DNA from: Marinigracilibium pacificum
GTDB lineage: Bacteria; Bacteroidota; Bacteroidia; Cytophagales; Cyclobacteriaceae
Direction: 5' to 3'
DNA: 64,000 nucleotides
NCBI RefSeq assembly: GCF_012926615.1
Contig: NZ_JABBNU010000004.1
Location: 62,001 to 126,000 of the forward strand
In this document: piece by piece, positions 38,195 to 47,791 of the stretch
Numbering within the stretch: the stretch's first letter is position 1
How the letters are laid out: each line of letters begins with the position of its first letter
Translations under genes and position numbers: made by a program
Notes under the pieces: model-generated
Database searches by the model: none
Told to the model about the DNA's origin: nothing
What the model saw: only the letters and a program-made list of their open reading frames with translations

Positions 38195-38268
38195 GGTCTG
38201 GTAGTTCAGTTGGTTAGAATACCTGCCTGTCACGCAGGGGGTCGCGAGTTCGAGTCTCGTCCAGACCG
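38195..38268 (+). tRNA. tRNA-Asp (GTC)
   Basis: A 74-base cloverleaf: acceptor GGTCTGG / CCAGACC, anticodon stem CCTGC / GCAGG around CTGTCAC with anticodon GTC, T-arm GCGAG-TTCGAGT-CTCGT, discriminator G as expected for Asp. CCA is not encoded. The sequence is identical to the second tRNA-Asp 632 bases downstream. Confidence 0.97.
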
Positions 38269-38278
38269 CCTCCTTACT

Positions 38279-38330: not shown

Positions 38331-38627
38331 ATGAAACAAGTCTATATTCTCTATTCCCCTGGCCTTGATATATATTATAAAGGACAAACATCAGATTTAG
38401 ATGAAAGATTGAAGTATCATAATTCAGGATACGAAACTTCTACATCAAAGGGAGTACCCTGGACATTAGTATGGAGTACTGCCAAAGCAACAAGGCAAGA
38501 AGCTATGTTGTTAGAGAAGAAATTGAAGAATTTATCCTGGGTTCGACTAGAAAAGTTTATGTCAAAATATTCTGAAGGGTTATCAGAATCAATAATTAAA
38601 GATAGGATTATTAGGATTAGCCAATAA
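38331..38627 (+). CDS. GIY-YIG nuclease domain protein
   Basis: 98 residues from the ATG at 38331 (MKQVYILYS); an upstream TTG-type extension would run back through the tRNA terminator. The single domain shows the GIY-YIG elements in the short UPF0213/YhbQ form: VYILYS, then YYKGQTSDLDERLKYHN with the catalytic Arg, and EAMLLEKKLKN with the metal-binding Glu; the second motif reads YKG instead of YIG. Such nucleases are often found right after tRNA genes in Bacteroidota. The gene sits between two identical tRNA-Asp genes, and its 3' end (ATTAGCCAATAACG) recurs in modified form in each unit of the tandem array downstream. Role unknown: DNA repair, or mobility of this tRNA-linked unit (inference). 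Confidence 0.85.
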   Translation: MKQVYILYSPGLDIYYKGQTSDLDERLKYHNSGYETSTSKGVPWTLVWSTAKATRQEAMLLEKKLKNLSWVRLEKFMSKYSEGLSESIIKDRIIRISQ

Positions 38628-38629
38628 CG

Positions 38630-38651
38630 AACAAGCTTTTGGGAGCTTGTT
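38630..38651 (+). repeat. Solo hairpin shared with the tandem array
   Basis: AACAAGCT and AGCTTGTT form an 8-bp stem around TTTGGG, two bases after the GIY-YIG stop. The hairpin and about 15 bases on both sides are the same as hairpin 1 of each 271-bp unit, so this is the likely parent copy. It could also act as the 3' end of the GIY-YIG mRNA, though it has no T-run. Confidence 0.7.
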
Positions 38652-38765
38652 GTCATGGTATGAGCAAATAATGAAAATGATTAAAAATATTTAGCTATAA
38701 GTAAAAGAATATCAATAAGATGGGAATAATGATAAAAAAAACATTGATTTTTTATAAAAACAGTA

Positions 38766-38826: not shown

Positions 38827-38900
38827 GGTCTGGTAGTTCAGTTGGTTAGAATACCTGCCTGTCACGCAGGGGGTCGCGAGTTCGAGTCTCGTCCAGACCG
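38827..38900 (+). tRNA. tRNA-Asp (GTC), second copy
   Basis: Identical over its 74 bases to the tRNA-Asp at 38195-38268, including acceptor stem, anticodon GTC and discriminator G. It has its own promoter. The tandem 271-bp array starts directly at its 3' end. Confidence 0.97.
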
Positions 38901-39752
38901 CCTCCTAATAAGAAAGCTGCTCAAATGAGCGGCTTTTTTTATGTCAAAAAATCCTAGTTTTGAAAGCTTTTCTACTTAGCAGGACCATCAAGGCAAATTA
39001 TTTGTGGTTAATCAGTGATTATTATTGTTCGAGCCAATGACGAACAAGCTTTTGGGAGCTTGTTGTCATGGTACTGATAGCCTTTCAGGCTCGTCAGTAT
39101 CTCGTCCAGCCGATGACGAAGAGTATAAACCTCTTGTCACGGTGCTGACGGCTATAGCCAATCAGCAACCGCCTCCTAATAAGAAAGCTGCTCAAATGAG
39201 CGGCTTTTTTTATGTCAAAAAATCCTAGTTTTGAAAGCTTTTCTATTTAGCAGGACCATCAAGGCAAATTATTTGTGGTTAATCAGTGATTTTTATTGTT
39301 CGAGCCAATGACGAACAAGCTTTTGGGAGCTTGTTGTCATGGTACTGATAGCCTTTCAGGCTCGTCAGTATCTCGTCCAGCCGATGACGAAGAGTATATA
39401 CCTCTTGTCACGGTGCTGATGGTTAAAACCAATCAGCAACCGCCTCCTAATAATAAAGCTGCTCATATGAGCGGCTTTTTTTATGTCCAAAAATCCTCGT
39501 TTTGAAAGCTTTTCTACTTAGCAGGACCATCAAGGCAAATTATTTGTGGTTAGTCAGTGATTATTATTGTTCGAGCCAATGACGAACAAGCTTTTGGGAG
39601 CTTGTTGTCATGGTACTGACAGCCTTTCAGGCTCGTCAGTATCTCGTCCAGCCGATGACGAAGAGTATAAAACTCTTGTCACGGTGTTGATGGTTAAAAC
39701 CAATCGGCAACCGCCTCCTAATAAGAAAGCTGCTCAAATGAGCAGCTTTTAA
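38901..39752. repeat. Tandem array of 271-bp units (three plus partial fourth) behind tRNA-Asp
   Basis: The landmark CCTCCTAAT recurs at 38901, 39172, 39443 and 39714, an exact period of 271 bases; units are nearly identical. Order within a unit: terminator hairpin with T-run, a spacer (ATGTCAAAAAATCC... with CAGGACCATCAAGGC), a relic of the GIY-YIG 3' end (GAGCCAATGACG), four hairpins, then ACCGCCTCC. In unit 1 the hairpins are 39038-39068, 39072-39099, 39114-39139 and 39141-39170. Hairpins 1+2 and 3+4 look like two copies of one two-hairpin module. Differences between units keep the stems paired. No spacer diversity, so not CRISPR. No believable protein is encoded. This fills the 873 bases without a gene before 39774. 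Confidence 0.9.
38911..38940 (+). terminator. Terminator of the second tRNA-Asp, repeated in the array
   Basis: AAAGCTGCTC and GAGCGGCTTT (one T-G pair) with loop AAAT and a T-run. Copies occur at +271 and +542; the last copy, at +813, has GAGCAGC, turning the T-G pair into T-A, and lacks the long T-run. Confidence 0.85.
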
Positions 39753-47696: not shown

Positions 47697-47711
47697 AGCC
47701 GATAATTAATA

Positions 47712-47733
47712 ATATCTGTTTAAAAACAGATAT
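47712..47733. promoter_or_regulatory. Perfect palindrome, candidate operator 1 of the satD-like operon
   Basis: ATATCTGTTT and AAACAGATAT form a perfect 10-bp inverted repeat around AA. It overlaps the 5' end of the predicted -7 box. Confidence 0.7.
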
Positions 47734-47738
47734 ATTTG
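47731..47738 (+). promoter_or_regulatory. Predicted -7 box TATATTTG of the satD-like gene
   Basis: An exact TAnnTTTG match lying between the two palindromes, 53 bases upstream of the ATG. No clear -33 TTG at the expected place, as may occur in regulated promoters. Confidence 0.5.
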
Positions 47739-47741
47739 TTA

Positions 47742-47759
47742 ATCTGCTTATAAACAGAT
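47742..47759. promoter_or_regulatory. Imperfect palindrome, candidate operator 2
   Basis: ATCTGCTTATAAACAGAT repeats the 18-bp core ATCTGTTTAAAAACAGAT of operator 1 exactly 28 bases further on, with identical ATCTG and CAGAT half-site ends. It covers the expected transcription start. Confidence 0.65.
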
Positions 47760-47791
47760 ATATTAGCATTAAATAGCATTCAATTATTATT

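Follow-up and report, generated by a model that had tools for sequence, protein, structure and literature searches.

What are the units of a tandem array that starts at the end of a tRNA gene, that fold into several hairpins and hold no plausible gene, and how did they multiply? We addressed this question for Marinigracilibium pacificum (Bacteroidota; Cyclobacteriaceae), using a stretch of 64,000 nucleotides of contig NZ_JABBNU010000004.1 (hereafter the window) together with other tRNA loci of the same genome and related loci from other genomes.

The array is made of split tRNA-Asp tails

The array (38897–39750) has a period of 271 bp with 3.2 copies, 96% matches and no indels, and is the only large array found by TRF in the window. 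Two further short tandem repeats lie at 453–492 and 47701–47765 (periods 18 and 28; TRF). The 271-bp array begins where the second of the window's two tRNA-Asp genes ends, and comprises three 271-bp units (38901–39713) and a 37-bp partial unit at 95–97% identity, the pairwise differences among units 1, 2 and 3 being 7, 13 and 12 per 271 positions (Table 1). The initial annotation had thus correctly described an exact-period array of three near-identical units and a partial one, beginning where the tRNA ends. The assembly artefact that it had named as a possible refutation is unlikely because the units differ from one another and because a similar array, whose three 408-bp units are all identical, occurs in a same-genus genome assembled as a single contig.

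Table 1 Features of the tRNA-Asp locus (window positions)
Feature	Position	Strand	Evidence
tRNA-Asp(GTC), first copy	38195–38270	+	ARAGORN; Rfam tRNA 67.9 bits
GIY-YIG nuclease ORF, 98 aa, intact	38331–38627	+	PF01541, E 2.3e-12
Half double hairpin (mainly HP1), spanning the GIY-YIG stop codon and continuing behind it	38621–38670	+	Covariance model R1, E 1.1e-5, G000:C32:100621-100670
tRNA-Asp(GTC), second copy, immediately before the array	38827–38902	+	ARAGORN
Array unit 1: tRNA tail and terminator, ~87-bp stretch, split T-arm with two double hairpins	38901–39171	+	TRF, unit alignment
tRNA-Asp terminator hairpin; recurs per unit at +271 and +542	38913–38945	+	Fold, sequence
Double hairpin A, unit 1 (also 39305–39370, 39576–39641); in the T-loop, between GTTCGAG and TCTCGTCCAG	39034–39099	+	Sequence, fold, alignments
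Double hairpin B, unit 1 (also 39381–39438, 39652–39709); between TCTCGTCCAG and ACCGCCTCC, the acceptor 3′ strand	39110–39167	+	Sequence, fold, alignments
Array unit 2	39172–39442	+	TRF, unit alignment
Array unit 3	39443–39713	+	TRF, unit alignment
Partial unit (37 bp): tRNA-Asp tail and terminator stem	39714–39750	+	Unit alignment

Each unit starts with the 3′ bases of tRNA-Asp followed by the tRNA terminator; the hairpin previously read as the unit's own terminator is present, and is the tRNA-Asp terminator copied along with the tRNA tail. The unit ends with the tRNA-Asp 3′ sequence in three pieces, GTTCGAG (39027–39033), TCTCGTCCAG (39100–39109) and ACCGCCTCC (39168–39176), which when joined give the exact tRNA tail with no base missing or duplicated. 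The two modules separating these pieces, A and B, fold into the same hairpin pair (z-scores −6.2 and −5.5, unit 1 folded as DNA), so that the four further hairpins noted earlier do exist and amount to two copies of one double hairpin. No target duplication is seen in the sequence at the double hairpins of the window units.

Between the terminator and the split tail lie ~87 bp whose first few bases, judged by eye, are those that follow the terminator before the GIY-YIG gene in two relatives; this unit interior holds no recognised nuclease sequence, the shared bases being its sole link to the nuclease form. Open reading frames inside the units are chance frames of 61–69 aa, and the one of three that was scanned has no Pfam match, in agreement with the earlier view that no plausible gene is present. 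A second full copy of the unit is absent from the rest of the genome, yet its parts and plan recur widely, as described below, contrary to the absence of copies elsewhere that had been put forward as a refutation.

A GIY-YIG nuclease gene lies upstream of the array

The first tRNA-Asp gene starts 632 bp upstream of the second, with a GIY-YIG nuclease gene in between, neither of which featured in the initial annotation; the nuclease gene ends ~0.3 kb upstream of the array. Its product resembles Slx1-type structure-specific nucleases and UPF0213 proteins, from which it is set apart by consisting of a single GIY-YIG domain with a short helical tail and by its linkage to tRNA tails. Searches of NCBIfam and PHROGs with this protein gave no match up to E 0.1. 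Across 45 aligned nuclease sequences Y5, G18, R26, H30, E62 and N67 are invariant and Y16 nearly so, all of which we take to be catalytic residues of GIY-YIG enzymes. The gene is under purifying selection, as evidenced by dN/dS values of 0.04–0.27 in the 25 closest pairs listed, which exclude two near-identical pairs and pairs with saturated dS. tRNA isotype labels require 32 changes on the nuclease tree compared with a minimum of 45 in 300 shuffles, a clustering that is confounded by species relatedness and is drawn from a tree with few columns.

Related nuclease genes follow tRNA genes across the Bacteroidota

The window protein has matches in 28 of 59 genomes (its own included) and none in the remaining 31. 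We examined 30 loci from these matches, a set that includes the window itself and some loci from one array: 19 start at most 150 bp after the end of a tRNA on the same strand, five lie 212–493 bp behind a tRNA (L085, L098, L104 and L105 are later array units), and six have no upstream tRNA in the locus, two of them near a contig end. Copies of the tRNA 3′ end occur downstream in 20 of the 24 loci with a tRNA. A scan of 84,980 species genomes, using two peptide patterns that derive from a four-sequence alignment and are blind to tRNAs, returned 72 loci, all titled as Bacteroidota taxa except three MAGs titled Chlorobiota. Sixty-one of these are testable, having a tRNA or enough upstream DNA, while the other 11 are cut by contig ends. 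A position behind a tRNA was found for 48 of the 61 (45 starting no more than 150 bp past a tRNA on the same strand, three as later array units), the chance expectation being well under 1% by our own arithmetic; the other 13 comprise seven with a tRNA 159–431 bp upstream and six without.

The tail of the same tRNA is copied behind the first ORF in 37 of 47 testable loci, compared with 17 of 833 when mismatched tRNAs were exchanged between loci; the copy is missing in the other 10. The left end of the tail match falls exactly on T54 in 19 of the 37 and on positions 53–60 in 31. The naming of arms, and of tRNA positions other than these computed left ends, is presumed. In many of the 29 loci listed the T-stem 5′ strand lies on the far side of the hairpins, which therefore sit within the T-loop, and hairpins in the D-loop were found in the array L187 of the same-genus genome G001 and in a tRNA-Met remnant (L214). 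The junction is G/TT at T54 and in the D-loop cases, these bases being nearly invariant in tRNAs anyway; in the window, module A has the junction GAG/TC and module B lies in the acceptor strand. Insertion places vary, falling at T54 or position 60, in the D-loop and, in the case of module B of the window, in the acceptor strand, and so do not indicate a single exact target.

Tandem repeats combining tRNA sequence with a nuclease gene recur in L094, L171, L138 and L123, with spacings of 361, 379, 364 and 367 bp. Contigs end within or beside GIY-YIG units in L110, L112, L115, L164, L169, L172 and L175–L177, including two contigs of Draconibacterium sediminis, and arrays of this kind may break assemblies. 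Tandem tRNA-Asp genes were also observed, with five copies ~100–114 bp apart in one genome (G012:C1:4347970-4348486) and two or three in several other relatives. A phage or plasmid origin was rejected: a single weak match to a phage (E 3e-5; 41% across 67 residues) and none to a plasmid were obtained, and none of 147 pattern-fitting stretches in viral contigs was confirmed as a relative.

Proposed element and mechanism

A complete element has a unit of ~360–480 bp and consists of a tRNA 3′ part, the terminator, a gene for a GIY-YIG nuclease of ~80–120 aa, a copy of the T-arm (sometimes the D-arm) whose loop is split by the conserved double hairpin, and again a tRNA 3′ part. We posit that the window array probably represents ORF-less tandem copies of such a tRNA-targeted element, which would amplify by nuclease cutting and recombination between tRNA tails. 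The nuclease may cut tRNA-gene DNA, or hairpins extruded from it, near the T-loop, and repair by recombination between the repeated tails would then insert, multiply and even out the units. The real tRNA would stay intact throughout because each unit starts with the full tRNA tail and terminator. The window array would on this account be an ORF-deleted derivative that expanded through unequal recombination of this kind, an intact nuclease gene lying a short way upstream. We infer the cutting and recombination steps. The initial annotation's suggestions of a tRNA-linked structured element and of a recombination-driven array both sit well with this proposal, the latter insofar as recombination took place.

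Turnover of units within the genome and genus

The arrangement is not confined to tRNA-Asp in this genome. The tRNA-Val gene is followed by four GIY-YIG starts 365–479 bp apart with damaged tRNA-Val copies between them, one nuclease copy having an internal stop and the last being truncated. The three longer ORF regions share 92.7–97.2% identity, which is as expected of units that have presumably been homogenised or recently multiplied, and two of the three align to G001 over 252 bp at ~72%. A downstream same-strand copy of at least 20 bases of the tRNA 3′ end is present at 9 of the 30 loci examined among 39 tRNA matches (L016, L017, L019, L022, L025, L028, L033, L034 and L035), some of these copies being joined to remains of double hairpins; the copy at L021 is 13 bases long, and behind L039 stands a second, complete tRNA-Glu gene. 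The two tRNA-Glu genes of L038/L039 (C23:324961-325596) share 80 identical bases, lie ~560 bp apart and have differing downstream regions. No same-strand tRNA lies directly upstream at the other three GIY-YIG loci or the seven Y1 transposase loci of the genome. A GIY-YIG gene that has no tRNA in its locus (L009, C7, ~1100–2400) stands between long similar stretches that appear by eye to be direct repeats, and is possibly another nuclease-linked repeat. A Y1 transposase gene (L180, C23:252913-253128) lies ~0.9 kb from a tRNA-Thr gene whose 3′ end is partly copied downstream.

Copy number differs between species of the genus. The tRNA-Asp site holds 3.1 units in the window genome; in G001 it has a single degenerate stretch resembling a unit together with a GIY-YIG gene that contains a stop, and in G002 an intact GIY-YIG gene with no units. 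Behind tRNA-Val, the window genome has four irregular units (the last truncated), G001 the three identical 408-bp units of L187, and G002 one truncated gene.

Could the array have arisen passively, by ordinary unequal crossing-over once a tail had been copied, with the GIY-YIG gene as a passenger that has an unrelated job? Unequal crossing-over alone could explain the growth of the array, its exact period and its near-identical units, and the five tandem tRNA-Asp copies of G012 occur in a genome with no match to the window nuclease. It leaves unexplained, however, why nuclease, tail of the same tRNA and covarying hairpin co-occur at many isotypes and in many genera, as well as the sharp break at T54, and we regard passive duplication as an unlikely full account. 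Amplification of a nuclease-bearing element at the tRNA tail remains our preferred explanation.

A conserved double hairpin marks the junction

In an alignment of 23 double hairpins, picked by eye and with rows that are not independent, 96.7% of cells are paired, changes on both sides occur in 13 of 17 pairs, and covariation reaches 0.561 compared with 0.159 in shuffled and at most 0.102 in slid alignments. A covariance model built on this alignment detects the double hairpin downstream of the ORF at 51 of 65 loci, and at 32 of the 46 outside the training set. Under the rule applied, the other 14 lack it; one of these, L109 from the same genus, shows a partial half hairpin. This count used the 79 plus-strand matches in 361 kb out of 131 matches in total, leaving out 52 on the minus strand, many of which fall at the same sites because the double hairpin is nearly symmetric; L166, L170 and L173 have minus-strand matches only. 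Fourteen of the 79 fall outside the rule, 13 of them within ~350 bp of a tRNA or GIY-YIG ORF and one (L141) apart, and those overlapping a tRNA end are perhaps chance matches.

Across whole genomes, the hairpin scan gave at least 20 rows in 6 of the 59 genomes, scoring in the R1 and R2 scans the best 99 of 103–2104 candidates per genome (the best 150 in an earlier R1 search). Of these 20 rows, 15 adjoin a tRNA, a tRNA remnant (that of L216 recognised by eye) or a GIY-YIG gene; for the other five, at four places (L206, L207, L217 and L219), the locus contains neither a tRNA nor a GIY-YIG match. A hairpin pair similar to the double hairpin was additionally observed in a tRNA-less locus of G002 (G002:C4:146786-146826; L193, reverse strand, ~1515–1580). 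Weak R1 matches in L186 and L189 of the same genome, with no tRNA in the locus and unlike the double hairpin, were left unused.

The form of the double hairpin recalls REPINs, which consist of two inverted hairpins with a one-base bulge, insert without target duplication and are moved by RAYT (Y1) transposases. Inverted REP pairs mobilised by such transposases and landing in the loops of tRNA remnants would account for the inverted bulged pair lacking a target duplication, for the G/TT junctions of the T54 and D-loop insertions, but not for those of window modules A and B, and for the few double hairpins at sites without a tRNA, and seven Y1 transposase genes are available in the genome. Searches with model R1 up to E 1, however, found nothing in the seven ~3.2-kb loci of these genes, and the copies are few in the whole-genome scans, at least 20 rows in 59 genomes with the best 99 candidates per genome scored. 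They lie mostly at tRNA remnants and are linked to the GIY-YIG gene, behind which the double hairpin recurs at the majority of nuclease loci. Transposase-driven insertion is therefore improbable, and a double hairpin belonging to the nuclease element is favoured.

The same hairpins bear on the multicopy small RNA suggested by the initial annotation, here considered as a structured RNA, and on a related reading, an RNA processing element on the 3′ side of the tRNA. Strong conserved hairpins behind a tRNA gene would fit such a role. Each hairpin set is, however, preceded by a terminator, neither the window nor five related loci match any Rfam family besides tRNA at gathering score, and G-U pairs make up 0 of 219 paired cells in helix 1 and 7 of 159 in helix 2, compared with 66 of 643 in the T- and acceptor stems of 54 tRNAs from the same loci. 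The absence or rarity of G-U pairs points to a double hairpin that is constrained as DNA and not as RNA, and we regard the small RNA as very improbable.

Relation to known systems

The closest published mechanism is the amplification of tRNA-Tyr by SegB, a free-standing GIY-YIG homing endonuclease of phages T4 and T6; a 718-bp repeat of tRNA-Tyr and segB is amplified via nuclease activity and recombination (PMC13096335). Common to both systems are a GIY-YIG gene adjoining a tRNA gene and the tandem amplification of a short segment of tRNA and nuclease (PMC13096335). Tandem repeats of this SegB type are present here (three times 408 bp in L187, as well as L094, L171, L138 and L123), as are the homing-endonuclease traits of a GIY-YIG domain with conserved catalytic residues and a gene beside its putative target (48 of 61 behind a tRNA), the tRNA gene being the presumed target. 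By analogy with SegB, the window element may work like a SegB-type, putatively homing, element. It differs in residing on a bacterial chromosome at many isotypes, in its ~80–120 aa protein, in a unit that closes with a tRNA tail and has the conserved double hairpin set into a tRNA loop, and in that, in the arrays examined, mainly the tRNA 3′ part is repeated.

tRNA-targeted islands form a second point of comparison, in which the element has the complete tRNA on one side and, on the other, a displaced copy of the tRNA 3′ end. The tRNA 3′ direct repeat at the far end (37 of 47 loci) is shared with tyrosine-integrase islands, whereas the tandem units of 0.3–0.5 kb leave no room for an integrase and the junction is marked by the double hairpin; no integrase gene was found inside the element, the examined units of <0.5 kb holding a GIY-YIG ORF or nothing. 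tRNA 3′ ends are the classical sites of integrases, and repeated tails with split T-loops, copied while their loops are broken, could in principle serve as decoys that absorb or block phage and island integration with the nuclease as guard, an idea that we consider highly doubtful.

Other known entities were rejected. A group I intron is inconsistent with the intact leading tRNA and with Rfam matches to tRNA only in the window and five related loci; Rfam gave no rRNA match in the window as required of an rRNA spacer, and CRISPR spacers are absent. An IS or MITE is not indicated by units that lack a transposase-size ORF and target duplications at the double hairpins. The exclusions of CRISPR, IS, MITE and rRNA spacer had already been made in the initial annotation and hold, with the qualification that the units can be regarded as MITE-like, gene-less forms derived from an element that carries a nuclease.

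Implications for tRNA loci of the Bacteroidota

No description of tRNA-linked GIY-YIG arrays in Bacteroidota was present among the literature matches listed, which mostly fall outside preprints and subscription journals. We tentatively suggest, as a possibility that goes beyond the amplification proposed above, that these loci represent an undescribed class of minimal selfish elements, in which a single-domain, Slx1-like GIY-YIG nuclease with a cis-acting DNA double hairpin, set into a loop of a tRNA-gene copy, would home in a structure-directed manner to tRNA genes near the T-loop, the tRNA would be restored by the element's own tail, and ORF-less homogenised arrays would be left behind.

If this is true, many Bacteroidota carry tiny nuclease elements that multiply at essential tRNA genes as safe harbours. 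This would account for repeated tRNA tails and for the small GIY-YIG genes that follow tRNAs, and perhaps for some contig breaks at tRNA loci. Nuclease-driven tRNA amplification as in phage T6 would extend to bacterial chromosomes, and a route from structure-specific nuclease to mobile element would become testable.
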